From an uncultured Lachnospiraceae bacterium (GTDB lineage: Bacteria > Bacillota > Clostridia > Lachnospirales > Lachnospiraceae), in contig CAMWLV010000009.1 of the NCBI GenBank assembly GCA_947175175.1, positions 1-49,497 of the forward strand: DNA of 49,497 nt. Reading direction: 5' to 3'. The first letter of the stretch is position 1. Each line of letters opens with the position of its first letter. The notes under the pieces are model-generated. The model did not search any database and had not been told where the DNA came from. It worked only from the letters and a program-made list of their open reading frames with translations. Below, piece by piece: positions 92-40,736 of this stretch. The translations under genes and the position numbers were made by a program.

Positions 92-463
92 TTATTCTTC
101 CGCTTGTTCCAATGCTTCTAGGCGTTTCAAGATGTCTGCCGTCTCCGTCCAGTTCCGGCATTGGGAGAACAACACCTGGATGGCATTTACCCTGACCTGT
201 GGCGGAACATTCTCGTTATTAATGATACGCTGTAATGTATCTGCTCCCTCTGATAAAGAAGCCTGCATCTTAGTTACTGCCGCTTCCACAAAGATTGCCT
301 TGCGCTCCGACAATACCCTCTGAAACGCTTCGTCTTTCCGATACTTGTCAATCGTTCCCCTTGAAAGATTGGTTGCTTTCATAATGTCTACTATCTTGTC
401 ATATTTCAAAAAAGCTTCAATCATTGTCTCGCTGTATGTCTTTTTCTTCGCCAATTGTATCAC
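92..463 (-). CDS. HTH protein resembling a phage small terminase subunit
   Basis: A 123-residue protein. The N-terminal half contains a helix-turn-helix (around residues 25-45, with SRGTIDKYRK as the recognition-type helix), followed by a helical region. This organisation resembles phBC6A51-like and other small terminase subunits, which bind phage DNA at the packaging start site. The start codon overlaps the stop of the upstream gene by 4 bases (ATGA), so the two are probably translationally coupled. It is the last gene seen of the leftward operon of the satellite-like element. No large terminase is present in the window, so it would need a helper phage for packaging, or it may be a plain DNA-binding regulator. 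The HTH call is reliable; the terminase role is inference. Confidence 0.6.
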   Translation of the reverse strand: MIQLAKKKTYSETMIEAFLKYDKIVDIMKATNLSRGTIDKYRKDEAFQRVLSERKAIFVEAAVTKMQASLSEGADTLQRIINNENVPPQVRVNAIQVLFSQCRNWTETADILKRLEALEQAEE

Positions 464-978
464 CTCGCTTTAATATCTCCCTCGCATTCCTTCCACACTT
501 CCGCCGCCGTTCCATTTAAAGCATCCAAGAAATTGTCTTCTGCATCTTCCTCCGGCTGATCGTCCTTAACTTGGCTTTCCAGTTTAAGAAGTTCTATTTC
601 AAGTTTCTGCTTATCAAGCTGATGTTTCAGCGGGTTGTTGACGAATTTATCTATCACAATCCCCATGGTAGTAGCAACCTCTGACAGTTTCGCCGCTGCT
701 ATCTTCTCTGGGTCTTTGAGTGTTTCCAGATAAGTGTCAAGGATTTCTTTCGCCTGCTCTTTTCTGGATTCCATGTATGCAAGCATATCAAGGGTGTTTT
801 GTTTCTTTTTTTGTTGGCATTTTGTGGCATTTTCTGTATCTGCCATGACAATATTCTTAACTGTGTTCCTTGACACGCCGTTGATTTTTGCAGTAGCGTT
901 ATAGCTGCCACACTCAACATAATCCGCAATTATTTTCTTTTTCTGCTTATCCGTCAAATGCGCCGCCATATTCATCAC
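460..978 (-). CDS. Second HTH/small-terminase-like protein
   Basis: A 172-residue protein. Residues 8-45 form an HTH of the type that starts many small terminase subunits (NATAKINGVSRNTVKNIV). A long charged helical segment and an acidic tail (DDQPEEDAED) follow. The acidic end and central helices fit an oligomerising small terminase, but this is family resemblance only. It sits immediately upstream of another HTH protein, with a 4-base overlap. Two consecutive proteins of this type are unusual. A general transcription regulator is the alternative reading. Confidence 0.55.
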   Translation of the reverse strand: MMNMAAHLTDKQKKKIIADYVECGSYNATAKINGVSRNTVKNIVMADTENATKCQQKKKQNTLDMLAYMESRKEQAKEILDTYLETLKDPEKIAAAKLSEVATTMGIVIDKFVNNPLKHQLDKQKLEIELLKLESQVKDDQPEEDAEDNFLDALNGTAAEVWKECEGDIKAR

Positions 979-1001
979 CTCACAAACTCTGCTGCCACTG
1001 A

Positions 1002-1175
1002 CTACTTTAATACCTCCCTTGCGTAATACTGGAAGGTCGAAACTATGTAATAGCCGGCATATTCTGGGGAAATAAATTGTATGTTTGCATCAAATCTGTG
1101 CTCAAATGTTTTTAAACTTGCCATATAGGCAGCAGGGCTTTCCTGCACATCCGCTAAATCAATAATTCCTTTCAT
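1002..1175 (-). CDS. Small hypothetical protein (57 aa)
   Basis: Starting at the ATG at 1175 gives a 57-residue protein beginning MKGIIDLADVQES. This ATG overlaps the stop codon of the upstream gene (ATGA). An in-frame upstream extension only re-reads the neighbour's 3' end in another frame, so the short form is preferred. It contains several aromatic residues near the end (YYIVSTFQYYA). I recognise no domain. Its place inside a tightly overlapping operon is the main support for it being real. Confidence 0.5.
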   Translation of the reverse strand: MKGIIDLADVQESPAAYMASLKTFEHRFDANIQFISPEYAGYYIVSTFQYYAREVLK

Positions 1176-1687
1176 TCCTGCTTTCCTCCCTCCGGCATAT
1201 AGACAACCTCGCCGCCCTCTAATTCGTATCTGTCCGCACAAATCAGCGCATCATAAGAAAGACAAACACCATACAAATCATCAAAGAATAAAGGATACAC
1301 TTCCCCATCACTGCACAGCGCATATAAAAGCACCTTATATTTGCACTCCCCTCCATCAGAATCCTTGACCACTGCATACATATCATGGGGGCAAGGGATA
1401 ATCTGCCGGATAATCGGTCTTGAATACGGTTTATTCTGTTCTGCTTTCACTTTCCTTTCCTGAAACTTTACATTGTCCTCGCCAAAAGCATTCACCAGTA
1501 TGGAAATATGTGCTTCATCAAAACTGCGGCTGCTCAACTTCTTGTATCCTTTGATACTCGCATCATATACCATTACAAGGGAATCCCCGGGGGATTCATC
1601 CAAAAGTGCAAATAATTTTTCCTCATTCTCGGAATACTCTTCCCGGCTGTCAAATTTTATCCATACTTCTTTTACAGATTCTTTCAT
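1172..1687 (-). CDS. Protein with DNA polymerase III alpha C-terminal-like domain
   Basis: A 171-residue protein. Residues 8-78 read like the extreme C-terminal domain of Firmicutes DnaE: an opening VWIKF strand, a helical LFALLDESPGD segment, a strand (SLVMVYD), then a helix ending AFGEDNVKF. The polymerase itself is absent. In bacterial Pol III this end of alpha contacts the tau subunit of the clamp loader. The second half (residues 90-165, beginning IIPCPHDMYAVVKD) is a separate domain I do not recognise. The gene lies two positions upstream of the terminase-like genes and downstream of the primase-helicase, so a replication role is plausible. The similarity was judged by eye and needs a profile search. 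Confidence 0.5.
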   Translation of the reverse strand: MKESVKEVWIKFDSREEYSENEEKLFALLDESPGDSLVMVYDASIKGYKKLSSRSFDEAHISILVNAFGEDNVKFQERKVKAEQNKPYSRPIIRQIIPCPHDMYAVVKDSDGGECKYKVLLYALCSDGEVYPLFFDDLYGVCLSYDALICADRYELEGGEVVYMPEGGKQE

Positions 1688-1748
1688 AATGTCACCCTTT
1701 CCGGCATATTCAAAATGCCATTGCTATTTTATTGAAATTCATTACCAA

Positions 1749-2040
1749 AAAGGGCAAAAGGGCAGATTTTTTTCGCCGTTTTCTTTTTTATATATAAATA
1801 CCCTATACCGCATACTTTTTAGAAAACTTCTAAAATATTTATTTATAAACTGCCCTTTTGCCCTAAATGCAGTAAATACAAGGCTTTGAGTGGGGCAGAT
1901 ATATAAAAATTACCTGCCCTAAAACTGCCCTAAATGCTCTAAAATCTGCCCTATCAGTCAAAAGGTAGTTCCTCCTGATACCCCTCCGGTATTGACACAA
2001 AACCATCCGGGGCAGTTTTTGGGGCAGGTGTGGGGCAGTT
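1749..2040. repeat. Iteron-like TGCCC(C/T) repeats near the primase gene's 3' end
   Basis: TGCCCT occurs at 1851, 1859, 1915, 1926 and 1947, with a degenerate TGCTCT at 1935. Inverted copies (AGGGCA) occur at 1751 and 1759, and GGGGCA at 1892. GGGGCAG at 2009, 2021 and 2032 lies inside the end of the primase gene. Spacings within clusters are 9-12 bases, close to one helical turn. An AT-rich stretch (1765-1850) lies between the inverted and direct copies. This resembles an iteron-type replication origin served by the adjacent primase-helicase. That function is inference. Confidence 0.5.
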
Positions 2041-4140
2041 TTTTCCATCAGAAATGCCCTTGAAATATCTGTAGCCGCCAGTCTTAAAATCTGTGTACCC
2101 CTTTACCCTCAAACTTTTGTAAAAATTATTCTTTGTCAGGCTTTGACGGTCAGTATCTTCACAATACTTTTCATAGTTCCTATAAAGTTCCGTCCGTTCA
2201 ATCCTGCTGCCATCTTCCAAAACACATGATTCCACAAGGAACGCCTGCACCGTGTCACTGTCCATTCGTAGCTGTGCAACGGCTTTTTCAGATTCAGCAG
2301 AGGTTACAATAATCTCTTTTTCATACATTCTTTCAAGTGCCTGCACGGAAAGCCATACAAAATAGTCAATTTCCTGTAACAGCTCATTCAGCAAATTAGG
2401 GTTCTTTCTCTCCGGCACTCTGTTCATGGGAAGTACCAAAAGCCGCCGATAAAAGCCGTTTGTTTTTTCAGCCTTTACAACTGGCAGTTCGTTTGTGGAA
2501 AATATCAGCTTTGCATAATTCTTGAAAGAAATTGCATCACGCCCCTTTTGCTCTGCCCTTAGCGTATCTTCCCCCAAAACCTTTTTAATGATTGCAGTAT
2601 CTTCAAGGGCTGATATTTCCAAATCTGCGCAACTGTTCAGCAGCTTACCCATAAGCCCGAAACTTGCAAACCGCTGTTGTAAATCGGTCAGACTGATATT
2701 TGACAGATTCCGGCTCCCAACGGATGATTCCATTAGCCTTATAAATGTGCTTTTTCCGCTGCCGCCCTCTCCAAGCAATACAAGAAATTTCTGCTGTCCT
2801 ACATCCTTTGTGTGTGCATATCCTGAAAACTGTAAAAGCATTTCCCGGCTGTCAGGCTCCGGGCAGATAAAGTTTAAAAATTCCTCTGTCCTTTTCCCCT
2901 CATGCACTGCATCCGGCTTGTACTCATGCGGTATCTGATTTATGGCTTTATATTTAGGGCTGTGCGGCAGCAGACGTTTTTCCTTGCAATCGTACATCCC
3001 ATTTTCAAAACATATCCAGTGCGCCGGATAACAATTTAATTCCTCAAAAGGCACCTCCAGGGATATATCACAAAGAAATCTGTCATATATTCTTTTCAGT
3101 GTGGTACTTTTGATGAACTGCGGATATATCAGTTTGCTAATCATTGTTTTCAGCCTTGCGCCGCTTGAATCAGCTTTAAAATAGCCGCCGTCATAGATAT
3201 AGACCGTACCGCCGCAAACAAATAAATCCTGCTGCCGCTTTATGTATTTAAAGATAGCTTCATCAAATACGCCTGTCGGAACGCCTTTATTATTCACAAG
3301 ATGAAACTGTGACAAGTCAAGCGTGTTTCCCTCTGTACTTTTTTCTGTAACGGTTTCCTGCTGCAAAAGGCTCTCAAATTCTTCCTTGCTGTGTCCTGCT
3401 GCAAAATAGTCTGATATATCAGCTTTGGGAATGTCCGGCACTGGAACAATAACCTTTGCGCTTTTCGCTATGCCTTGCAAGTCGCTCTGAATAGTATTTG
3501 CGACACGCCGCCCCGGTTCGTCATTGTCGGCCAGTACATAGACAACCGCCCCTTTGCATAGCTGCGCCATATCTGCCGCCCAATCATTCACACCGCCGTA
3601 GGAAAAAGCTGTATAGCCTTGTTTTGCCAGTGTATCAGTGTCTTTTTCTCCCTCTGGTATAAATATAGGCTTTCCCTCTGAAATCGCCTTATTTATGGCT
3701 TGTACGCCGTCAGGAGCATAGACAGCGCATAACTCTTTCCGTGTCCGTCCTCCCAGTCCGTAGGTGAAACGCTCACTTGCCAACGTGCCATATATCATTT
3801 TCTTTCCCTGCATCCGCACTTTAGAAAAAGCATAGCCGCCGTTAATAGAAACGTAATTATAAACTGCTTCAATAGGCTTTTTCTCTCGGCTCTCAATATA
3901 GACTTGCCAACTGCTACCAGTCCGCTTTTCCTGATAGAATAAATCAGACATTTTCAAGCCTGCTGCCGACAATACATTTTCAATACTGCAATTTGCATGA
4001 CAGTGTATAAGGACGGAATCACGCCCTCTTGTGATAGTCAGGGACGCTTGCTTGTCATCATGCGCCGGGCATTTGCACTGTGCCTTGTCAGGATAATGCT
4101 TTTGCACTTGAAAATGATCTAGTATTTCATCATAAGTCAC
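1954..4140 (-). CDS. Phage/plasmid primase-helicase, D5/P4 family
   Basis: A 728-residue replication protein. The N-terminus has a CHC2-like zinc-binding primase motif: C22, C24, H27 (CKCPAHDD) and C47, C51 (CHANC). A TOPRIM region follows around residues 155-230, with EGEKD and ADNDEPG as metal-binding motifs. Then comes the D5-type N-terminal region and a superfamily 3 helicase with Walker A GEGGSGKST near residue 457. The C-terminus is a winged-helix-like region ending in a proline-rich tail encoded by the GGGGCAG repeats. Proteins of this layout unwind and prime replication of satellites, phages and integrative plasmids. It is the largest gene of the leftward operon and lies 44 bases after the excisionase-like gene. 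Confidence 0.9.
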   Translation of the reverse strand: MTYDEILDHFQVQKHYPDKAQCKCPAHDDKQASLTITRGRDSVLIHCHANCSIENVLSAAGLKMSDLFYQEKRTGSSWQVYIESREKKPIEAVYNYVSINGGYAFSKVRMQGKKMIYGTLASERFTYGLGGRTRKELCAVYAPDGVQAINKAISEGKPIFIPEGEKDTDTLAKQGYTAFSYGGVNDWAADMAQLCKGAVVYVLADNDEPGRRVANTIQSDLQGIAKSAKVIVPVPDIPKADISDYFAAGHSKEEFESLLQQETVTEKSTEGNTLDLSQFHLVNNKGVPTGVFDEAIFKYIKRQQDLFVCGGTVYIYDGGYFKADSSGARLKTMISKLIYPQFIKSTTLKRIYDRFLCDISLEVPFEELNCYPAHWICFENGMYDCKEKRLLPHSPKYKAINQIPHEYKPDAVHEGKRTEEFLNFICPEPDSREMLLQFSGYAHTKDVGQQKFLVLLGEGGSGKSTFIRLMESSVGSRNLSNISLTDLQQRFASFGLMGKLLNSCADLEISALEDTAIIKKVLGEDTLRAEQKGRDAISFKNYAKLIFSTNELPVVKAEKTNGFYRRLLVLPMNRVPERKNPNLLNELLQEIDYFVWLSVQALERMYEKEIIVTSAESEKAVAQLRMDSDTVQAFLVESCVLEDGSRIERTELYRNYEKYCEDTDRQSLTKNNFYKSLRVKGYTDFKTGGYRYFKGISDGKNCPTPAPKTAPDGFVSIPEGYQEELPFD

Positions 4141-4184
4141 TATTGCACCCCTATTCTGTCATTATCTTTGAAAACCTCGCTCAT

Positions 4185-4388
4185 TTACTCACCTGATAAA
4201 GCATCCATATACTTATCAACTTTGGGAAAATCAATCAAATAGTTACGCCCGATTCTTATAACGGCATTTGCATCCTCAGCAATCTGCCGCATAGTATTTC
4301 TTCCAACTCCGTAACGTTGACATGCCTGCTCTATTCTGCCCGTTTTAACATCAATTCCCGATTCTGTTCTAACCAATCTACTCTTCAT
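4185..4388 (-). CDS. Excisionase-like small HTH protein
   Basis: A 67-residue protein with a winged MerR/excisionase-type HTH: IEQACQRYGVGRNTMRQIAE, then a wing segment (AVIRIGRNYLIDFPKVDKYM). Such proteins bend DNA to direct integrase toward excision, or act as small regulators. It lies between the operon's first HTH gene and the primase, the usual place for xis in satellites. No integrase was found nearby, so any excision role would depend on a lost or distant recombinase. Confidence 0.7.
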   Translation of the reverse strand: MKSRLVRTESGIDVKTGRIEQACQRYGVGRNTMRQIAEDANAVIRIGRNYLIDFPKVDKYMDALSGE

Positions 4389-4539
4389 ATAAAAATCACC
4401 TTTCTTTTATTGTTTGTTATTGTGTTTCTTTATGCTTTCATGGTATACCAGCTTTAGCAGAAAGAACATATCTAAAAAGTGTCTAAAAAGTTCCATAAAA
4501 GTATCAAAAAACTCTCATAAATCTTTCAAAAATACTGTT

Positions 4540-4731
4540 TTATTTCTCAAAATTCACTTGCACCCCCCTTATACTTTCGATTGCTCGCATAACCTTTTCT
4601 TTCTTCTCTGCATCCATTTCAGACCGAAGCCATTTACTGAAAGCTGATTCCGATACCCCAAGCGCATCCGCAATCTCATAGTGAAACAATCTGCTTTTCC
4701 TGATTTCTTCCCTGATTTCTAAATTTGCCAT
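4540..4731 (-). CDS. Small XRE/Cro-like HTH regulator
   Basis: The ATG at 4731 (MANLEIREEI) is preferred because AGGAG lies 8 bases upstream; an in-frame start at 4752 is possible. The 63-residue protein has a Cro/C1-type HTH (HYEIADALGVSESAFSKWLR). It is the first gene of the leftward operon, divergent from the larger XRE repressor. By position it is a Cro- or Str-like early regulator. It is separated from the repressor by the operator array at 4768-4898. Confidence 0.75.
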   Translation of the reverse strand: MANLEIREEIRKSRLFHYEIADALGVSESAFSKWLRSEMDAEKKEKVMRAIESIRGVQVNFEK

Positions 4732-4767
4732 TCTATTCACTCCTATTGACATTCTGCATTTTCTATG

Positions 4768-4898
4768 TTACCATTTTAGTAATCAATAATTATTGTTTAC
4801 CATATGGGTATCTTATCATGTTTACTTCCAGTTGTGGGAATTATTACCAAATAAGTTACCTATACAGTAATCTGATAATCAAATTACCATTTTAGTAA
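4768..4898. promoter_or_regulatory. Five-site operator array between divergent repressor genes
   Basis: The 15-bp dyad TTAC-N7-GTAA occurs as TTACCATTTTAGTAA at 4768-4782 and 4884-4898, and TTACCTATACAGTAA at 4856-4870. Degenerate forms lie at 4797-4811 (ends GTAT) and 4844-4858 (ends GTTA); the latter overlaps the next site. The two identical sites flank the intergenic region, one next to each gene start. This is typical of a lysogeny-type switch controlled by the XRE repressor or its divergent partner. Confidence 0.7.
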
Positions 4899-4914
4899 CT
4901 TATGGGGGTAAATT

Positions 4915-5538
4915 ATGGAAAACAGATTCAGGAAATTAAGAATGGAACTCAATCCAAATGACATGGAGGAGTACAAAGCAAAAGACTTATCTAAAGATTT
5001 AGGAATTGCCGCCCCTAAAATATCAGAATTGGAACATGGGAGAGCTGCATCATTATCAGAATTGCAAGCATATCACAAATATTTTAATGTTCCCTATGAA
5101 TATCTTTTAGGAGAAAATGACAGTAGGCACTATGAAAACATGACAGCATCCAATGAAATCGGACTAAACAGCGAATCCATAGAAACTATTAAAAAAATCA
5201 CACAAGATGCCGTCCTGAAACGCCTGCTTAATACTTTCATAGATAAATATATAGTTGGACTGCTTAGAGAAATATCCCGTGGAACTTACTATGTGGAAGT
5301 TACCAACCGCAATATTGTTGATGGCTCAAGCAAGGCTTATGAAAATTATTGCAATTATTACAAAGATATACAAATAGCGTCAGACAAGGCGAAAGAAGCA
5401 CTGCAAGACATTACCAACCAAACCGGACATATTTTCCGGGTTGTTTCCGGGGATGATAATATTGAGTATTGCAAATTAAAAGCTGGTGAAATGGTAAAAA
5501 AAGCAGTAGGTGAAATATTATATCATTGGGAAAAATAA
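4915..5538 (+). CDS. XRE-family repressor (CI/Stl-like)
   Basis: A 207-residue protein preceded by GGGGG 7 bases before its ATG. Residues 1-65 are a Cro/C1 HTH (KDLSKDLGIAAPKISELEHG) ending in the common YEYLLGENDS linker. The C-terminal 130 residues are a helical domain with no LexA-type peptidase motif (no Ser/Lys pair seen), so RecA-stimulated self-cleavage is unlikely. In satellites such repressors are lifted by a helper-phage protein. It is divergent from the leftward operon, with the operator array between them. Its terminator appears to have been split off by the downstream IS. Confidence 0.8.
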   Translation: MENRFRKLRMELNPNDMEEYKAKDLSKDLGIAAPKISELEHGRAASLSELQAYHKYFNVPYEYLLGENDSRHYENMTASNEIGLNSESIETIKKITQDAVLKRLLNTFIDKYIVGLLREISRGTYYVEVTNRNIVDGSSKAYENYCNYYKDIQIASDKAKEALQDITNQTGHIFRVVSGDDNIEYCKLKAGEMVKKAVGEILYHWEK

Positions 5539-5554
5539 ACATATTAAAGCCCTT

Positions 5555-7372
5555 GAGAGTGTCAGATAAACTGTGTATTTCCTTAAAACTGCCATCAGGG
5601 ATTATATCAAATCCTCGAAAGCCTGTAAAGGCTGGAACAGGCTTGAAAGGAAAAAATAATTCGCACTAAATAATGCAGGAAACAAGCCTTTTTGTGGGAA
5701 AAGTAGTAAAATAAAAGAAAAAAGTTTTTCGCAAAGGAACCTATATGAGCAGGAAACAAGAGAGAATTCGGAGAAAACTGGAAAGCAATCCAGTAGCGGA
5801 GTGCAATAAGATCAGGAATAAGTATTGTCCTGACCTGTTCCGTGATTTTGCAGATACAAAAGATCCGAGAAACCAGAGTTATACAGAGTATTCCAACGAT
5901 GAACTGCTGGGGACTATGTTCTATAAAGGAATAGCCGGAATCAAAAGCATGCAGTCAATGACATATGAGTTCAACCGTGAAAGGGTTGTGGAAAATCCAT
6001 ACCAGTTTATGGGACGAAAAGGGAAAGAATACCTTCCCCATGCAGTCACGGTTAATGAATATTTTGAGAGGCTTTCACCGGATGAACTGCAGAAGGTGCA
6101 GCAGAAGCAGGTCTGTGGACTGATCCGCAGCAAAGCCTTTTATGACACCAGATTTCAGAAGAAATGGCTTGTGATCGTAGATGGAACACAGACTTATTCC
6201 GGGAGGCGCAAACTCAATGATGGATGCCTGGAACGTCATTATAACAAAGGGACAGAGGAAGAAACAGTGAATTACCACTGCGACGTGCTGGAAGCGAAGA
6301 TTGTGTTAGGAGAGAGCCTGATTGTAAGCATAGCCAGTGAATTTATAGAAAATAATGGAGAAGATGCTGAAAGGCAGAAACACATGAGTGAGGAGAAACG
6401 GAAGCAGGATTGTGAAACAAAAGCCTTTAAGAGGCTGGCAGGGAAGATAAAAAAGGCATATCCGCGGCTGCCCATCATACTGCTGGCAGACAGCCTGTAT
6501 GCATCAGAACCGGTAATGGACATCTGCCGTGATAACGGCTGGAAATTCATCATCCGGTATAAAACGGGAAGCATTCCCAGCATTACGGAGGAATATGAAA
6601 ACATCCCGGAAAAGGAAACGTCAGGGCATGCAGAATACGTCAACGGAATTGATTATAATGGGAAGCTGGTGAACATGCTGCGTTTCTGGGAGGAAAAGAT
6701 TGTGAACGGAGAGGCTGTGCGGACGGAGTTCTAATGGCTTACAAGCATACGCATAACCAGAAAGAATGCAGAGAAAACGGCAGATGCCGGAAGGAAGCGC
6801 TGGAAGATAGAGAATGAGGGCTTCAACCGCCAGAAGAACTGGCAGGGGGACATCACCCATGCCTGCAGCTGGGATGCTACTGCGATGAAGAACCATTACC
6901 TGATGATGCAGATATCAGATATGGTGAAGCAGCTGTATGAATGGTTCTGCCTGAAGAAAATGGAAATAAAAAAGAAACACAAAAATATATCTTCCGAACT
7001 GTTAGAAAGCTTTGGCTGGCAGCTAACAGAAGGGGAAGATATAAATTGGAATGATACGCACTGCGCACCAGTCAACTGAAATAAGTATAGCAAAGGAAGT
7101 GATGCCTGCCAAGAGAGAAACAACAAAATTATGCACAAAAAAAGAAACACAGGAAAAGTGCCGCTATACGATGTGGATAACTATAGAAAAACTCAGAAAA
7201 AATGTGCATAAAATAAATTTCCTAAAGATGACAGGCTGAAAAAGAGTTTTCCTTTCATAACTGAGGCTGGAAGGCTTACCTTGACAGGCTTCCGAGGATT
7301 TAAGGATGACTTCTAAGCAGTTTTAAGGGGCAGCTTTTCGAAAACAACTTACACACTTAATCTGACACACCC
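5555..7372 (+). mobile_element. Insertion sequence with 8-bp target duplication
   Basis: The outer ends are imperfect inverted repeats of 23 bp: GAGAGTGTCAGATAAACTGT on the left and GGGTGTGTCAGATTAAGTGT on the right (reverse complement). They match at about 19 of 23 positions. Subterminal similarity continues inward (GCAGTTTTAAGG, GAGGATTT, ACAGGCTT on both sides). AAGCCCTT occurs directly outside each end (5547-5554 and 7373-7380) and is read as the target duplication. The element carries one transposase gene, broken by a stop codon. A non-coding stretch (7080-7372) holds only the right subterminal region. Confidence 0.8.
5745..7079 (+). pseudogene. IS transposase (DDE type) with in-frame stop
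   Basis: The frame is open from ATG 5745, except for TAA at 6732-6734, then continues unchanged to 7079 (444 codons). The N-terminal part has IVDGTQTYSG (first catalytic Asp region) and ILLADSLYAS (second Asp region). The part after the stop carries GRKRWKIENEGFN, where the catalytic Glu of this transposase type lies. The stop therefore removes the third catalytic residue. A C-to-T change of CAA is the simplest cause. The family resembles IS4-group/ISNCY DDE transposases; I could not fix the exact family. Confidence 0.8.
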
Positions 7373-7414
7373 AAGCCCTTACTGCTTTTTCCAGTAGCAA
7401 GGGCTTTTATTTTA
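7373..7414 (+). terminator. Rho-independent terminator, displaced from repressor gene
   Basis: AAGCCCTT (7373-7380) pairs with AAGGGCTT (7399-7406), with extra inner pairing (ACTG/CAGT), followed by TTATTTTA. The same AAGCCCTT is found right after the XRE gene at 5547. The IS therefore appears to have inserted at the first arm of this terminator and moved the hairpin 1.8 kb away from the repressor. Confidence 0.7.
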
Positions 7415-7604
7415 TGAAACTCTATTGAATTGAGATAAATTTGAGATAAAAGCGCCATTCCGGCAGCAGGACAGCAACAAACTTTCCTTGATTTCCGGGC
7501 TTTTCCGGCTCAAAAATCAGTTAAGGCTTTTCATCGTCGAAACATGATGTCATTTTGCCTGATACTTCTTTCTCACATTCAGGACATTTAATAGATGCCC
7601 TGGC

Positions 7605-9059
7605 TTACCTCTTTTCTAAATTGTATTTATTATTTTGTTCTTTTCTTTCCTCACGTATAACATAGGCATTACATTCTATGGCATAGCGTTCAACATCATA
7701 CAGATTCATATTAAAGCTTTGCGAACTTCTATTGCTTTTGTATTTAGTCTTATTTACATATAGTACTTTGGTTCCATACGGCGGTTCTTTTAATGTTTCA
7801 CTGATTTTCTTCACATATAATTCATTATTATTTTTTCTTATTTGAACAGTGTAATTATAAAATTGCAAATCACAGTTCCCTACTTTTCCATCTTTATCAA
7901 AATTAATTTTGTACAGATATTCATTTCCATAATACCCATAATATGAAAGCCATAAAAGAATGGGGTATTCCCTGTCAGCATAGGAATAAGTATATGGATT
8001 AAGTCGTAAATGCGAATATGGAAGTTTTTGGTTTAAAATATAGTCGGTTGTTATTTTTGTGGGCAATGGCTTTTCATAAAAATTGTTATATGGAGTAAGC
8101 AACCTATTAACAAGGATTAATGCCGCCTTTGCTGTTTGGAGATTTTCCCCGTCAAGTTCAATGACTGTAAAATTCCCATCTGTTACAAAAGGCTTTTTTA
8201 AATCAAAAGGCTTCATATCATATTTTTCAACATCTTCAAACGATAGATTAAGGTTGTTATCCTTTTCAGTGTTTATTCTATCATAGTAATCTTTGTATGG
8301 GTCAGAAGCTTCTTTTTGTTCAACAGATACATCGAGCCTTTTATTTTTTGATATTCGTTTTTCTAAAAGTTTTATTTGACTTTGTTCTATTTGTTCCAAA
8401 TTTTTCAAATCGGTGGACGGTGAGCTTATAAACGGCAACTTGCCCTCATATTCCGACAACTCCGCCAAAATAACCTTTATCTCGTTTATGGAATCATAAA
8501 ATTCTTTTCTATCAGTGGTTTCATTTGCTATTTCTGAAAGCTTTTTGGCTTTTTCCAACATCTTATAAGCTTCAAAAACAGATAAGCCTTCTTGGATATC
8601 TTCAGATACATGCGAATCAAATGATTCATTTTGAGTATCAGCTATATTTTTATCAGACGATTGCGCATTTGCTTCTTCCGATATACGCTTTTCTAAAAGT
8701 GCAATTTGTTTGTCTTTGGCGTTTCTGAATTTTTTTAAATGCTCTGATGGCGGTTGAGACAGATTTAATTTTTGCTCTATTTCAGATAGTTCGATTAATA
8801 TATTTTCTATTTCGTCTACAGAAGCGTAAAAAATATTCCTATCAGTTGTTTGATTTATAACGATTGCCAATTCATTTACCCTGTCAATTTTGGCGTTTGC
8901 TTTAACAATAAGAATTTCATTGAGCAGTACTATAATTCTTTGGTAAAACTCGTCTCTATTGTATTCTAATAAAGAATCCGACTCTGGGATTGAGATTGTA
9001 ATATTGCCTTTCAAACTATTTTTATTCAGAACATTAAGTATCTTTTGTATAAAACTCAT
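7605..9059 (-). CDS. Unknown protein with two tandem helical repeats
   Basis: Start chosen at ATG 9059 (MSFIQKILN); starts at 9110 or 9122 are also open and none has a strong ribosome site. The protein (about 484 residues) has two repeats of about 70 residues. Each begins with a conserved (I)(N/A)(Q/E)TTDR motif, followed by FY.S..EI..IL.ELSE, and ends in I.LLEKRIS. The repeats are separated by an acidic linker. The C-terminal half is rich in Tyr and Asn. It is AT-rich compared with its neighbours, suggesting transfer. Reading on in the same frame past the TAA gives 28 codons with IKCPECEKEV, like the start of a zinc ribbon. Function is unknown. Confidence 0.6.
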   Translation of the reverse strand: MSFIQKILNVLNKNSLKGNITISIPESDSLLEYNRDEFYQRIIVLLNEILIVKANAKIDRVNELAIVINQTTDRNIFYASVDEIENILIELSEIEQKLNLSQPPSEHLKKFRNAKDKQIALLEKRISEEANAQSSDKNIADTQNESFDSHVSEDIQEGLSVFEAYKMLEKAKKLSEIANETTDRKEFYDSINEIKVILAELSEYEGKLPFISSPSTDLKNLEQIEQSQIKLLEKRISKNKRLDVSVEQKEASDPYKDYYDRINTEKDNNLNLSFEDVEKYDMKPFDLKKPFVTDGNFTVIELDGENLQTAKAALILVNRLLTPYNNFYEKPLPTKITTDYILNQKLPYSHLRLNPYTYSYADREYPILLWLSYYGYYGNEYLYKINFDKDGKVGNCDLQFYNYTVQIRKNNNELYVKKISETLKEPPYGTKVLYVNKTKYKSNRSSQSFNMNLYDVERYAIECNAYVIREERKEQNNKYNLEKR

Positions 9060-9151
9060 ACTCTTTTCTCGCTTTTCTAATATTTTATCGAATATGACAA
9101 ATTTTACCATATCCAGCCGCAAAATGAAATATATTTGTATAAATACAATAT

Positions 9152-12774: not shown

Positions 12775-13053
12775 TCAGTTGTCTTCCTTCTGCGCAACCA
12801 AAAATAGCTCTTTTCTAAGTTCGTCATCAGTTTTGGGTTTACACACGCCGGATCCAATCAATATGTCTATTGCCATCTGCGCAGCAAGTTTTGTGCCGAC
12901 TGTTATTCCGTTCAGTACCATCTTTGCACAGACTTCTTCCCAACTGTCTGATTCTTCACACCCTCGGAAGATGCATTCCTCCAGCTTGTCTTTCTGCCCT
13001 TCAAGCTGCCTGTCCACCTCACGCTCTATAACCGTTTTCAACAAATTATCCAT
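12775..13053 (-). CDS. Small phage-associated protein of unknown function
   Basis: A 92-residue acidic helical protein with three cysteines near the middle (ECIFRGCEES...EVCAKM). It lies just upstream of the tape measure gene and 13 bases downstream of the next small gene. In tailed phages this position often holds tail-assembly chaperones, but no sequence motif proves that here. The 119-base gap to the tape measure gene holds no clear gene. Confidence 0.5.
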   Translation of the reverse strand: MDNLLKTVIEREVDRQLEGQKDKLEECIFRGCEESDSWEEVCAKMVLNGITVGTKLAAQMAIDILIGSGVCKPKTDDELRKELFLVAQKEDN

Positions 13054-13066
13054 GCTATCGTTCCTC

Positions 13067-13531
13067 CTATGCCTTATCTCTTAATGCAATGTCCAGGTAA
13101 TGGAAAAACAACCGCCTTGCCCCATAGAAATCAGTCCTCCCAAGCGGACACCGCCCCAATTCTTCATGGAACTCCACATGCTCGTAGGAGAGACCTTTTG
13201 TCACTGACAAAATGATATGTCCCGCGGATTTCCTGTCAGCCTTGAGGGCACACTCCATCACAATCCCTGCATATTCATCAGACTTTGCAATCCCCATCAG
13301 TCCGTTCAGCCTTTCAGGTGTGATTCCATACTCTTCCCATGATGCCCTGATGTTCTTCGCCTTTTCTGCCCTGCGCTCCCAGTATCCCTTGTTATACTGC
13401 TGTATCTTGTCCCGGTTCCTTGCACGCCAGTTCTTTCGCTGGCTGTTAATCTTCTCCCTGTTCCTTCTCCGATACTCTCTTTGATAAGCCCTTCTTGTTT
13501 CGATAGCTTCCGCTGACATCTCTGCCCCCAT
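13067..13531 (-). CDS. Phage-associated protein of unknown function, basic N-terminus
   Basis: A 154-residue protein with a strongly basic N-terminal half (RRAYQREYRRRNREKINSQR), with repeated RN-R-K-I motifs suggesting nucleic-acid contact. The second half ends GRTDFYGARRLFFHYLD. GGAGGG lies upstream of the chosen ATG. It is the first gene of the three-gene tail fragment. An N-terminal part like HNH-associated or viral basic helices is possible, but no HNH motif is visible. Function not known. Confidence 0.5.
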   Translation of the reverse strand: MGAEMSAEAIETRRAYQREYRRRNREKINSQRKNWRARNRDKIQQYNKGYWERRAEKAKNIRASWEEYGITPERLNGLMGIAKSDEYAGIVMECALKADRKSAGHIILSVTKGLSYEHVEFHEELGRCPLGRTDFYGARRLFFHYLDIALRDKA

Positions 13532-13731
13532 TCCCTATCCCTCCATTCAAATGATTACCCCACATTTGCAGGTTTATTTTCATGATACAAAACGTGGTCA
13601 CCTCCCTGTACTGACCACTGTGTGAATACTTTTCCTTTCTGCTCTTTCTTCCATTATCCTACATTTTGACGAAGCAGTTGTACCATTTTATAGAGGTTTT
13701 ACGCTATGCTGATACACTCAAAAATTGTGAT

Positions 13732-15058
13732 TTAGGAACTGTAGAAAAATAATTGCTCAATAGTAATATATGTGTTATAGTTGACTAAATACAAGAGATG
13801 AGGTTAGCCAACATGACAAACGAAGCTATAAATAAACTTAATATATATTCAGATGCTTTTAACCAGATTCGTAATGTTTTGAACGAACGAGACCGCCGCC
13901 TTTTTCTTGCCGAGACTGCTGTCCAGGCTGGGCATGGAGCCCTGAGTATCCTTAGCCAGCGCACAGGGGTTGCGATCTCTACAATACGCCGGGGGGTTGC
14001 TGAACTTTCATCACAAGAATCACCTGATGATGGATATATCCGATGCAGCGGGGCAGGGCGCAAGCCAGTGGAAGAGACCTACCCAGACATCATAAAATCA
14101 GTACAGGAAATCCTTGATGATGAGACTTATGGTTCTCCAGAAGGCGGAAAATGGACATCATGCAGCCTTCGGAATATCTCAAAAGCATTGTCTGATAAGG
14201 GGATTACCATTGAAAAAAGCACAGTACAGAGAATCGTAAAGGAGCTTGGTTACAGCCGTCAAAAAAACCGCAAGATGGAGCAGGTGGGCACTCCCAGCCC
14301 TGACCGGAATGAGCAGTTTGAATTCATCCGATCGGAGACCAGGGAAGCCCTCAAGGATGGTATCCCTGTAATCTCCGTTGACACAAAGAAGAAGGAGAAT
14401 ATCGGGAATTTCAAAAACGATGGGACAGAGTACCGCGCCTGTGGATCACCACGTCTGGTGTCTGACCATGATTTTTTCATACCAGAACTCGGAAAAGTGG
14501 CTCCTTATGGCGTATATGTGCTAAATGACAATGCCGCATTTGTAAACCTGGGGACAAGCGCTGACACAGGTTTGTTTTCAGTGGAGAGCATCCGCCGGTG
14601 GTGGTACACGATAGGCAGGGAGAACTTCCAGTACGCTGAAAGGATCGTGATCACATGTGATTGTGGCGGGAGCAACGGGACCAGGAACAGGCTGTGGAAA
14701 CTTGCACTGGCAGAACTGGCTGAGGAGATTGATAAGGAGATCGAGGTCATCCATTATCCACCAGGGACATCCAAGTATAATAAAGTCGAACACCGTCTCT
14801 TCTGTTACATTACAAAGCACTGGCAGGGCAAACCATTGGTCGATGTTCAGACTGTAGTGAACCTCATTCAATCTACGACCACGGAGAATGGACTGTCTGT
14901 TGTATGCATGCTTGATAAGAATGTTTATGAAACTGGCATTAAAGTGACTGATGAAAACTTTGATGCAATTGACATTGATTACATAGGTCCACACCATGGA
15001 TGGTCATATATCATAAAAGGATTCAGAATTTGAGCGTTAATTTTTCTACAATTCCTTA
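13732..15058 (+). mobile_element. ISAzo13-type insertion sequence
   Basis: Inverted ends: TTAGGAACTGTAGAAAAAT at 13732 and TAAGGAATTGTAGAAAAAT (reverse complement) ending at 15058. Similarity extends through GCTCAA. The 1.3-kb element contains one intact transposase gene. I could not identify a target duplication. The terminal sequence closely resembles the ends of the small palindromic element at 33153-33213. Confidence 0.75.
13798..15033 (+). CDS. ISAzo13-family transposase
   Basis: A 411-residue transposase (a start at the ATG 15 bases further in is also plausible). The N-terminal third has HTH segments (SILSQRTGVAISTIRRGV and a second GITIEKSTVQRIVKELGYS). The RNase H-like catalytic domain shows VISVDTKKKENIG (first Asp), ITCDCGGSNGTRNRLWK (second Asp) and GTSKYNKVEHRLF (catalytic Glu). 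These three motifs are characteristic of the ISAzo13 family. The reading frame is intact, so the element may be active and could mobilise related MITEs. Confidence 0.9.
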   Translation: MRLANMTNEAINKLNIYSDAFNQIRNVLNERDRRLFLAETAVQAGHGALSILSQRTGVAISTIRRGVAELSSQESPDDGYIRCSGAGRKPVEETYPDIIKSVQEILDDETYGSPEGGKWTSCSLRNISKALSDKGITIEKSTVQRIVKELGYSRQKNRKMEQVGTPSPDRNEQFEFIRSETREALKDGIPVISVDTKKKENIGNFKNDGTEYRACGSPRLVSDHDFFIPELGKVAPYGVYVLNDNAAFVNLGTSADTGLFSVESIRRWWYTIGRENFQYAERIVITCDCGGSNGTRNRLWKLALAELAEEIDKEIEVIHYPPGTSKYNKVEHRLFCYITKHWQGKPLVDVQTVVNLIQSTTTENGLSVVCMLDKNVYETGIKVTDENFDAIDIDYIGPHHGWSYIIKGFRI

Positions 15059-15156
15059 GCACCAAAAAAGAATCACCCTGATCTTATTCATGATGACTCT
15101 TTCAATTTCTTTACTAATCAAACACTTATATAACTATAGTACTATATACTATTACA

Positions 15157-15191
15157 AAAGCCCCTCATGGCAGCAGTCATAAAGGGGCTTT
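15157..15191. terminator. Hairpin terminator downstream of the ISAzo13 element
   Basis: AAAGCCCCT and AGGGGCTTT form a 9-bp stem with a 17-base loop, flanked by A and T runs, so it could act on either strand. The bases around 15034-15301 otherwise hold no gene. A tandem ATTGGGGTA/ATTGGGGTA pair at about 15205-15224 is seen. Confidence 0.65.
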
Positions 15192-15301
15192 AAAATATAA
15201 AATTGGGGTATTTATTGGGGTAAAATGCTATGCAAAACATCTACAAACCGCATAAATAAAGGCTTTTACGCTAATTTGTCATTATACTTGTGGTATAAAA
15301 A

Positions 15302-16522
15302 TCAATTCTGAAATGAATTCATCCGCAGCTTAACCCTTAAAATGTGTCCCACGGATTCGTCAATCCGTTCCTCGCTGATTTCACCGCATTCGACGGCAGA
15401 GATCACTCCCTCTGCTGCCTGATGAAAATCTGCTGGCATCAGTATCATATCAACACCTGCGTTGACCGCAGCAACTGCGGCATCTTCACTGGTGTATTTT
15501 TCAATAACAGCACCCATATTCATGGCATCTGTCACGATGATTCCGTCGTATTCCAAGTTACCGCGCAGAATTTCTGTCACCATCTTATATGACAGAGAAC
15601 AGGGAGTGTAATCCCCTGTGACTGTCGGCACAGATATATGGGAAATCATAACCAGATCAATCCCTGCCTCCCCGGCACCTGCAAACGGAATCAGTTCTGC
15701 CGACAACAATTCTTCATACGACTTATCCGTGTACGCAAAACCCTCATGTGTATCTGCCTCCGTGGCGCCATGCCCCGGAAAATGTTTGAAAGTGCTCAAT
15801 ATCCCGTTATCATGCAGCCCGTCAGAGTACGCGCTGGCAAAGCATAGTACTGTCCCAGCGTCCACCCCAAACGAGCGATTGCCGATCACGGTATTGTTCT
15901 GATTGGTCAAGACGTCTGCATCCGGTGCAAAATCCAGATTAAACCCCAGCTCTTTCAAGTATGTGCCTATCTTATTTCCTGCCTCATATGCACCTTCTTC
16001 CGACTTTATATTCCCCATCGGTCTGATCTTTGCAACATCAAAGCCCTTGTTGTTTCCAACACGTGCAACTGTTCCGCCCTCCTCATCCACACACTGAAAA
16101 AGCGGTATCCCTTCCATGTCCTCTGCGGCTTCCTGCGTATAACGCAGCATTTCTCTGGTCTGCGCAGCATCAATCAAGTTTCTGGAAAAATAGACCAGCC
16201 CTCCGACCGGATACTCCTCCAGCTTAATGCGCATCGTCTCATCTGCTGTCGTGACATTGGCACCATCCGTCAGCACCTCTGGTGTCACAATAAACATCTG
16301 GTATACTTTCTGTTTTAATGACATAGAATTCAGTATCTCCTCTGCACGTCTCTCAATTTCCGCTTCATCCGGGGCATTGTCTATCCCCTTTTCCTGTGGA
16401 GAATCCACCTGCTCCTTTTTCACAAATCCAGCAGCTGACAGCAATAACATCATTACCAATATCAATCCAATTGCAATCTGTACTTTATTCCTTTTCCCAG
16501 TAAGTATAAGAAGCTTTTCCAT
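15302..16522 (-). CDS. Glycoside hydrolase family 3, NagZ-like beta-N-acetylhexosaminidase
   Basis: The ATG at 16522 gives about 406 residues beginning with a basic stretch and a hydrophobic segment (IAIGLILVMMLLLSAAGF), a signal peptide or membrane anchor; the frame is open upstream to 16591. The catalytic domain includes FQCVDEEGGTVARV, and KHFPGHGATEADTH, the signature of the NagZ subgroup in which the His in the loop acts as acid/base. VTDAMNMGAV carries the nucleophile Asp. NagZ-like enzymes remove N-acetylglucosamine from muropeptides or chitin-type oligosaccharides. With a signal segment it likely works outside the membrane. It stands alone, with a terminator upstream separating it from yqeY. 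Confidence 0.88.
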   Translation of the reverse strand: MEKLLILTGKRNKVQIAIGLILVMMLLLSAAGFVKKEQVDSPQEKGIDNAPDEAEIERRAEEILNSMSLKQKVYQMFIVTPEVLTDGANVTTADETMRIKLEEYPVGGLVYFSRNLIDAAQTREMLRYTQEAAEDMEGIPLFQCVDEEGGTVARVGNNKGFDVAKIRPMGNIKSEEGAYEAGNKIGTYLKELGFNLDFAPDADVLTNQNNTVIGNRSFGVDAGTVLCFASAYSDGLHDNGILSTFKHFPGHGATEADTHEGFAYTDKSYEELLSAELIPFAGAGEAGIDLVMISHISVPTVTGDYTPCSLSYKMVTEILRGNLEYDGIIVTDAMNMGAVIEKYTSEDAAVAAVNAGVDMILMPADFHQAAEGVISAVECGEISEERIDESVGHILRVKLRMNSFQN

Positions 16523-16708
16523 GTTCCTATTACCCCAATCCATATTATTCCCATACAGTACCTCATCATTTATCATTATAACAGGCATCATACAATTTTA
16601 CTATCTATTATTTCATAAACTGCTTGAACACCGATATGAAGATATCCTTATGAATCATTTCCTTACACACTCCAGCGGCATATTTCGTCTGCATCGGCGT
16701 GTGCATAA

Positions 16709-39934: not shown

Positions 39935-40212
39935 TCCCTTTTATAAATTTTTTCTTTTAATGGTTCTCCCTGCAAAACATCAATATAATATTCCTTCAAA
40001 TGTTTTCTAATCTCTTGTGGTGTAACAGGAATTTCCGTATCCAAAAAAGGATATTCCAAATGTACTTTTTTGTCTTCAGATACAATATACACTCTATGAC
40101 CATAATCATTTACTCTCACATACCAATAATAGCATGTTCCTTCGTACTCTATTTTGCGTTTATTATTCTTTAATACCATATTTACCCCAACTACATTGTC
40201 CAAAAATCTCAC
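39931..40212 (-). CDS. Small hypothetical protein (93 aa)
   Basis: A GTG at 40212 overlaps the stop of the GNAT gene (GTGA); an internal ATG at 40179 (MVLKNNKRKIEYEG) is an alternative start with GGGG upstream. The sequence is rich in Tyr, Lys and Glu, with alternating strands (CYYWYVRVNDYGHRVYIVS). I recognise no domain. It is the last gene of the phosphoesterase-GNAT operon. Confidence 0.55.
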   Translation of the reverse strand: MRFLDNVVGVNMVLKNNKRKIEYEGTCYYWYVRVNDYGHRVYIVSEDKKVHLEYPFLDTEIPVTPQEIRKHLKEYYIDVLQGEPLKEKIYKRD

Positions 40213-40736
40213 ATCCTATGAACATACATTCTTGACATATTGGGTTCACCATCGCCCTGCACCATACACAGAAATTCCCATCCATAACGCTCATAAAACG
40301 ATGTGTGGTCTGTCAACAGATAAAGTGTGTCAATTCCCCGCTTCTTCATATCTGTACAGACAGTATTCAATAATACCCCTGCCACGCCCTGTCCTCTTTT
40401 CCGCTCTTCTGTATAGACAGCACAGACATTGGGTGCAAGGTCTTTTCTGTCATGAAAATCATTTTCGATCACACCCATTCCACCAATGATCTGATTTTCT
40501 TCCATTGCCAGATACCATTGCGGGACGGCACTTTTCATCGTCAGACATTCTTCCATGGAAAGACATTTCTCCATGGATAGGCACTCTTCCATGGATAGGC
40601 ACTCTTCTATGGATAGGCACTCTTCCATGCTTTCCAGATACGCCTCCAGCGGGATTCCCCATTTCTCATGAAACCACTGCGCTGCGCGTTCTTTTAACTC
40701 CGGTCTGTCCACCAGCCGGATTATCTCATATGCCAT
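40209..40736 (-). CDS. GNAT N-acetyltransferase with internal tandem repeat
   Basis: A 175-residue acetyltransferase. The acetyl-CoA-binding motif is VYTEERKRGQGVAGVLLNTV, followed by LYLLTDHTSFYERYGWEFL. The start overlaps the phosphoesterase 3' end by 16 bases. Residues 37-66 are five repeats of M-E-E-C-L-S type; relatives of this fold have a single short helix there. Substrate unknown. Confidence 0.82.
   Translation of the reverse strand: MAYEIIRLVDRPELKERAAQWFHEKWGIPLEAYLESMEECLSIEECLSMEECLSMEKCLSMEECLTMKSAVPQWYLAMEENQIIGGMGVIENDFHDRKDLAPNVCAVYTEERKRGQGVAGVLLNTVCTDMKKRGIDTLYLLTDHTSFYERYGWEFLCMVQGDGEPNMSRMYVHRM
40539..40628 (-). repeat. Five 18-bp coding tandem repeats in the GNAT gene
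   Basis: Units of 18 bp on the minus strand (ATGGAAGAGTGCCTATCC and variants). The first three differ by one base, the last two have diverged further. Each encodes a six-residue M/I-E-E/K-C-L-S/T unit, so copy-number change keeps the frame. Confidence 0.9.

Follow-up and report, generated by a model that had tools for sequence, protein, structure and literature searches.

A probable phage-satellite module with two small-terminase-like genes in a proposed composite island of an uncultured Lachnospiraceae bacterium

To what kind of mobile element does the module at positions 92 to 5538 of a contig from an uncultured Lachnospiraceae bacterium belong, and how does that element lie in the chromosome? 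The window analysed here, 49,497 nucleotides in length, is contig C9 of a 4.1-Mb assembly (249 contigs, 86.5% complete). The original prediction had seen in the module the replication and packaging genes of a phage satellite resembling the phage-inducible chromosomal islands (PICIs), with an insertion sequence (IS) in the place of its integrase. We favour, at a probability of about two in three, the reading that the module forms the repressor-side end of a PICI-like satellite, and that at least two mobile elements, this one among them, are stacked between a GH3 gene and an RtcB-like gene. The satellite type is supported by gene content, by relatives bounded by attachment (att) repeats and by terminase synteny. 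Position 1 of the window coincides with the first base of C9, so that the module runs off the assembly, and no contig continuing C9 beyond this point was found there. No structural gene lies in 92-5538, a stretch cut by the contig end; the absence of capsid, portal and large-terminase (TerL) genes cannot be judged on such a stretch and carries no weight as the argument for which it had been used. The names RtcB-like, lysS-like, relaxase-like, VTC-type and GNAT-like rest on our reading of the proteins rather than on profiles, as does the phage nature of loci L112 and L113. Relatives are cited by labels for loci (L), genomes (G) and contigs of the same assembly (C).

Module genes and the two small-terminase candidates

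The gene set originally described is present, with profile matches where these were found. Leftwards of a divergent XRE repressor, the minus strand carries in order a small helix-turn-helix (HTH) regulator, a DUF6462/Xis-like gene, a primase-helicase, a 171-aa accessory gene, a scar open reading frame (ORF) and two HTH genes, here called TerS1 and TerS2, which share a 4-bp overlap (Table 1). The order repressor, xis, primase, terS agrees with that of PICIs in the accessible text of PMC6092414, as had been claimed, and the divergent master regulator, xis and primase/rep module expected of a PICI are all there; a terS homologue is an optional PICI trait in the literature, and by synteny there are two here. 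The proportion of synonymous differences (pS) was at least three times that of nonsynonymous differences (pN) in all eight gene pairs compared (five module genes and a tape-measure gene described below; the repressor and small HTH gene lay outside this test, and pS for TerS2 was near saturation), which indicates coding beyond chance. The excisionase-like gene is 100% identical in L015 and 88-91% identical in L073. The 171-aa gene had no Pfam match at E 1 and a best PHROG match of 0.057, and a PADLOC scan matched none of ten proteins, this one included. Among the matches listed in our comparison of the window with other loci, from which its own loci were excluded, positions 982-1136 align to the 3' end of an ERCC4-domain gene, of which L013 and L015 have the complete form; the ORF at this place looks like the scar of a nuclease-gene deletion.

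We examined the two HTH proteins against small-terminase (TerS) profiles, where regulators and TerS came out about equal. TerS1 matched TerS phrog_4044 at 0.005, phrog_23746 (unknown) at 8.9e-4 and Pfam Sigma70_r4_2 at 4.8e-4, and TerS2 matched TerS phrog_7344 at 4.7e-4, phrog_268 (unknown) at 4.8e-4 and excisionase phrog_66 at 5.8e-4. Since these scores are weak and mixed, the terminase call rests on synteny, by which the original description of the genes as terminase-like was borne out. Thirty viral stretches tested with TerS1 yielded 25 loci, which are not 25 independent cases because near-duplicates (L033-L035, L042/L043) are among them. Judged by seed searches, as throughout for TerL and portal genes, TerL follows the TerS1-family gene within 0.6 kb in 23 of the 25 and at 1.75 kb in L039 (24/25 within that distance), the last case being L024 with 5.7 kb; a portal match follows in 22. 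Many phage contigs encode a TerS that shares 71-78% identity with TerS1 itself.

TerS folds comprise an HTH and a long-helix region, and TerS C-tails take part in the contact with TerL. Of 17 loci that have the C-terminal tail motif of TerS1, 15 have one class of TerL, that of L023, and of the eight loci lacking the motif none has it, TerL genes more than 2 kb away being disregarded. The exceptions are L024, with no TerL inside 2 kb, and L039, with another TerL class; L042/L043 carry a near-match, LFDAIN, that falls outside the motif pattern, and their TerL and the L023 type share 49% identity. Because the window's TerS1 carries the motif, an L023-type TerL would be its partner. We also observed that the L024 phage contig holds its TerS1-type gene at 8001-8522 and a different TerS-like gene directly before TerL (13625-15572).

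In L070, L117 and L071 (a locus that includes the viral contig stretch L116), a TerS2-family gene comes immediately before TerL. On contig C238 of the same assembly (L054), a TerS2 homologue is followed by an 81-aa gene and then by TerL (PF04466, 1.4e-30), to which the TerLs of the three former loci are 90-92% identical; a blastp comparison of this TerL with the L023 class gave nothing at E 10. In L053, L072, L124 and L125, TerL and portal seeds gave no match alongside the TerS2 family. The predicted structure of TerS2 combines an HTH with long helices (mean pLDDT 85.7). Genome searches placed the family in five of 397 family-sample genomes and five of 38 genus genomes, our genome being counted in both. 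A sequence search of the PDB returned nothing for TerS2 and, for TerS1, 20 matches headed by HTH regulators, with no TerS among them; phage records gave no match to TerS1 and two weak ones to TerS2, and a viral-contig scan with TerS2 alone confirmed no relative. C238, which also encodes a ~300-aa protein of the kind described below, is a separate element, its TerS2 being 54% identical.

The two families were found paired in one other place, L053 of genome G108. Its first protein keeps the TerS1 tail behind a different front part (TerS phrog_309, 3.5e-10), its TerS2 is 70% identical, its xis and 171-aa genes are related to those of the module, and the 5.6 kb after TerS2 contain no TerL or portal match. 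A third type of packaging gene occurs on this backbone: elements L057 (11118-11756) and L058 (8423-8959), with a related primase from the same genus, carry a gp3-like gene, whose L057 protein matches PF16677 at 6.9e-6, below the cut-off of that profile.

Related elements, attachment sites and a proposed composite island

A scan of genome contigs with the primase (30 stretches tested) gave ten close loci with 85-94% identity in the best segment, from five Lachnospiraceae, two uncultured Clostridium (one bin), one Hungatella, one Bacillota and one uncultured bacterium. Plasmid and phage records returned only remote matches to the primase, below 60% identity, and a viral-contig scan with it confirmed no relative. 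By their ORF lists these close kin are integrative elements. In L015 a 16-bp core at 5825 and 18910 encloses 13.1 kb with, inside the right end, an integrase that has a Tn916 integrase DNA-binding domain (PF02920, 3.7e-28); L013 has a core pair with one mismatch and an element of about 19.4 kb. Both have a further integrase gene just outside the left core, which we read as that of a neighbouring element. None of the ten matched TerL or portal seeds, most of them ending early. Full prophages, named at the outset as the homologues that would speak against a satellite, were not met with in the primase lineage; in L016, however, a head-tail adaptor gene (phrog_541, 1.2e-21) lies directly outside the repressor, and TerL occurs in other islands at the GH3 site, L073 and L128.

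The integrase had been expected beside the repressor, where an IS now lies, and neither this position nor its proposed loss to the IS was upheld. The IS is flanked by copies of AAGCCCTT at 5547-5554 and 7373-7380 and sits in a short non-coding gap: among the matches listed, window positions 4469-5554 and 7365-7539 form one unbroken stretch of L017 (9263-8168 and 8183-8009), in which the repressor adjoins a lysS-like gene with no integrase between them. Displacement of an integrase by the IS is rejected on these grounds. In four of the ten primase relatives (L013, L015, L016, L019) the integrase is at the end opposite the repressor; five of the other six stop at contig ends and L021 has no integrase in 8.4 kb past the primase. 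Since an integrase-like gene does adjoin the repressor in the ORF lists of L055 and L058, more distant elements of the same genus, and does not in this lineage, the expectation fits those other elements. On contig C46 (L146, 8799-9221) we noted a transposase-like ORF next to a truncated piece of an integrase that is 56% like that of L015.

The island extends well past the module, to 15299, and holds a gene for a tail tape-measure protein that was absent from the earlier description. The repeat search proposed there was rewarded with attL beside GH3, whose 26-bp core has an exact copy on contig C231 (2732-2757) between the RtcB-like gene and a tyrosine integrase (PF00589, 7e-24). The empty GH3-RtcB site of G032 (L130) contains the 20-bp heart of the core in a single copy, and G566 (L132) has two copies, which enclose 3.6 kb. 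Because they share the core and the GH3-RtcB order, C9 and C231, separate contigs of the assembly, would be parts of one island. The arm-like repeats at the island's two ends differ, and the stretch that separates the repressor from the 505-aa gene contains a core of a second type. We read the whole as a composite in which a reduced tape-measure element would be followed by the module and then, beside RtcB, by one or more parts that bear an integrase.

Table 1. Features of the island and its GH3 flank, by position in the window
Feature	Coordinates	Strand	Basis or remark
TerS2, 123 aa, probable second small terminase	92..463	-	family found with Terminase_3 TerL
TerS1, 172-aa small-terminase homologue	460..978	-	synteny with TerL; C-tail FLDALN
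Probable deletion-scar ORF	1002..1241	-	982-1136 vs ERCC4-domain gene
171-aa backbone accessory gene	1172..1687	-	comparison with relatives
D5-type primase-helicase (D5_N / DUF5906 / Pox_D5)	1954..4140	-	PF19263 6.8e-22, phrog_6088 3e-85
Excisionase-like (DUF6462)	4185..4388	-	PF20063 3.2e-12, phrog_16129 1.6e-6
Small HTH regulator	4540..4752	-	phrog_17740 7.5e-15
Divergent XRE repressor	4915..5538	+	profiles; 97% identical in L017
IS insertion with 8-bp target duplication AAGCCCTT	5547..7380 (IS 5555-7372)	.	DDE transposase ORF 5745-6734
Arm-like repeat TTTTATCTCAAATTTATCTCAATT...	7417..7451	-	also at both ends of L013 and L015 elements
Att-core-like CGACGATGAAAAGCC	7525..7539	-	equals 3' end of lysS-like gene in L017; both element ends in L015
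505-aa gene, between tape measure and module end	7605..9122	-	no family; Pfam chance-level 0.3
Tail tape-measure protein, 1094 aa	9371..12655	-	phrog_1535 E 3.0e-130 and 2.9e-131 (two scans)
92-aa gene before tape measure	12775..13053	-	no family
154-aa gene, weakly endonuclease-like	13067..13531	-	relatives precede tape measure in L070, L013, L114, L118
ISAzo13-type transposase, between island end and 154-aa gene	13798..15033	+	PF07592 2e-109
Second arm-like repeat TTTTACCCCAATAAATACCCCA	15204..15225	-	common to repressor-side ends of L020, L021, L075
attL, 26-bp core TTTATACCACAAGTATAATGACAAAT, directly after GH3 stop	15274..15299	-	identical copy on C231
GH3	15302-16591		PF00933 1.8e-75

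Tape-measure genes are present in the window and in L053, L072, L114, L124 and L125. L072 is a complete element of 14.5 kb bounded by a 45-bp repeat, and L124 and L125 are whole viral contigs of 14.6 and 14.8 kb; these three share TerS2, a small gene and a ~300-aa protein as well as an integrase gene, one of repressor type and genes for replication, and each has a tape measure (967, 912 and 1001 aa, respectively). A PHROG scan matched no major capsid among 15 ORFs of L072 and 12 of L125, and the ORF lists showed no major capsid gene in the rest of the three. Two further elements bounded by repeats are G569, of 14.9 kb (44-bp repeat), which has TerS, TerL and a ~300-aa-type protein and whose last gene encodes a tape measure, and L071, of 16.8 kb (26-bp repeat), with TerL and portal and, by ORF lists and seeds, no tape measure; L070 likewise holds TerL and portal matches. 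The ORF lists of L072, G569 and L071 show no capsid gene, the profile scan having covered L072. The model of the ~300-aa protein has a pLDDT of 83, and we call it coiled from a reading of its helices; its best viral fold match is to an uncharacterised protein (E 1.7e-3), and further matches, from 0.11, are mixed, minor-capsid and tape-measure names being among them. L112 and L113, which look like phage tail regions and are possible helper types, encode tape measures related to that of the window (32% and 35% identity along parts of the proteins).

Several smaller observations belong to the same island or its genome. Contig C4 carries a C-terminal tape-measure fragment (L107, 2-1609), 93% identical to that of the window and followed by other chromosomal genes; it is a second copy in this genome, and as a continuation of the window's element C4 was rejected because it abuts a different site. 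On C85 (L110, 1747-2181) a tape-measure remnant stands beside the same kind of response-regulator gene as flanks the L071 element (17792), which makes this another shared insertion site. No clear relation was found between the 505-aa gene and a 381-aa gene of L013 (29 residues, E 0.095). Outside the island, the peptide SMEECL is repeated in tandem and in frame within a 175-aa GNAT-like ORF (40209-40736).

Points against a satellite and competing readings

A number of findings weigh against the satellite reading. The contig ends 91 bases past TerS2, and the direct profile scores of both TerS proteins are poor and divided; the TerS2 model has no PDB fold match at 0.001 (best E 0.17), and neither TerS1 nor TerS2 was matched in any of the ten close primase relatives. 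An L023-type TerL was not found at 1e-40 in our genome (86.5% complete), and it is present in two of 38 genus genomes. At the same GH3 site, L073 (G034) has the 171-aa gene (82%), a TerS2-like gene (32%), TerL and then a contig end, and in L128 (G017) a 171-aa-type gene is run together with TerL; since these islands carry TerL, without a portal seed match in either, TerL may follow in the window's element too. The joint reading frame in L128 (3047-4612) is possibly a natural fusion. One gene of L072 has a partial minor-capsid match (PF06152, 1.5e-7; phrog_4611, 9e-13). Relaxase-like genes in the element adjoining that of L013 (L111, 14766-16426) hint at conjugative neighbours. Finally, no L015-like integrase was found in our genome beyond a 56% identity over the C-terminal part, the integrase beside the RtcB-like gene is only 31% like that of L015, and the IS beside the repressor, the nuclease deletion and the second IS are signs of decay.

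These last signs bear on a reading that overlaps with our own and that we consider doubtful but possible, namely that the region is a graveyard of satellite-derived pieces that no longer move or work. The insertion next to the repressor, the deletion scar, the ISAzo13 insertion, the reduction of the neighbouring segment to a tape-measure end and the lack of a matching integrase in the assembly all fit it, and with two IS, one deletion and no matching integrase found, the window's element may itself be decayed. Nevertheless, the module ORFs are intact and conserved where tested, another integrase lies beside the far att copy, and the assembly is 86.5% complete.

It is unlikely that the module belongs to an ordinary prophage, as its early region and the beginning of its packaging genes, with the structural genes still to come past the end of the contig. 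The stop just past TerS2 would allow for this, as would the close resemblance of TerS1 to TerS of phage contigs, the TerL genes of L073 and L128 at the same site and the TerL and portal genes of L070 and L071. However, what follows TerS1 is TerS2 and not TerL, as in L053; L072, L124 and L125 have TerS2 without TerL; none of the close primase relatives, most of which end early, matches TerL or portal seeds; and the three relatives bounded by att repeats measure 14.5-16.8 kb. We likewise hold it unlikely that this is a non-satellite integrative element with a Tn916-type int/xis, a plasmid-like primase and passenger phage genes, its HTH proteins being regulators or decoys: the Tn916-type integrases of L013 and L015 (with PF02920 in L015), the missing TerS matches in the close primase relatives, the regulators among the direct profile matches and the relaxase-like genes next to L013 would suit it, but the two TerS genes overlap and have pN well under pS, TerS1 retains a tail motif tied to one TerL class, and a gp3-like packaging gene occurs on same-genus elements of the primase family (L057, L058).

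Proposed cycle and comparison with known satellites

The sequence itself provides the gene content and its conservation, the att repeats, the synteny of the terminase genes and the neighbouring tape-measure gene; from these we infer how a PICI-like satellite of this make-up would behave. An active helper phage would cause the repressor to let go; excisionase and integrase would excise the element, the primase-helicase would replicate it, and TerS1 and/or TerS2 would mark its DNA and pass it to the TerL of the helper or, if one lies beyond the contig end, to a TerL of the island itself. The original prediction held that lone terminase-like genes let the element redirect a helper's packaging; the terminase reading is upheld by synteny, and redirection would be its consequence. 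The element may use two kinds of helper, because the TerS1 and TerS2 families go with TerL classes that lack a mutual blastp match.

Compared with the PICIs of Gram-positive cocci, such as the SaPIs, the module shares with the accessible account in PMC6092414 a divergent repressor with xis, primase and terS on one strand; own att sites, a size of about 15 kb in complete relatives and the lack of a detected major capsid gene would likewise be in keeping with a PICI. Differences are that in this lineage the integrase, where seen, stands apart from the repressor, that the two TerS come from different families and that adjoining and related elements, known here from their genes, carry a tape-measure gene. 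Strictly, such a gene next door and in complete relatives breaks the rule that PICIs carry no structural genes. Tn916-type elements share the integrase DNA-binding domain of L015 and the Xis-like gene, and differ in that packaging genes are present here and that no conjugation gene was noticed in the ORF lists of the L013 and L015 cores, no dedicated search having been made.

The nearest parallel for the tape measure is found in the PLE satellites of Vibrio cholerae, whose tape measures were shown in chimeric tails (reported 2026; PMC12987554, as far as its accessible text goes). That text states that no other satellites were reported to encode a tape measure, and mentions putative tmp genes in PLE-like elements and in capsid-forming PICIs (for some of the latter in the legend of its Extended Data Fig. 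10). A satellite-encoded tape-measure gene is thus common to both, by description; the hosts differ, chimeric tails were shown there and gene content is what we have here, and the accessible part mentions no TerS pair for PLE. Capsid-forming PICIs, as partly seen in PMC12987554 and PMC11389934, have in common with some of our relatives the TerL and portal genes; the difference is that no major capsid was found in L072, L071, G569, L124 or L125, partly by profile scans and for the rest by ORF lists. By title and abstract, most subscription papers being outside the search, we found no paper on a satellite of Lachnospiraceae that combines TerS with a tape measure, nor one on a satellite with two terS genes.

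The complete relatives unite TerS2, a coiled ~300-aa protein and a tape measure, with no capsid gene found, and by analogy with PLE this suggests that such satellites could insert a ruler of their own into helper tails. More tentatively, and with odds that we would put clearly below even, capsid-less satellites of gut Lachnospiraceae might reprogram both ends of virion assembly, with two TerS for two TerL classes or helpers, their own tape measure in helper tails and the TerS C-tail as an exchangeable docking part for TerL. If satellites with TerS and tape measure and without capsid genes are real in gut Firmicutes, they would suggest tail takeover to be a general strategy. If paired TerS of different TerL classes do serve as proposed, one satellite would have two helper types, which is testable, and such use of two helpers would bear on how satellites keep up with the diversity of their helpers.

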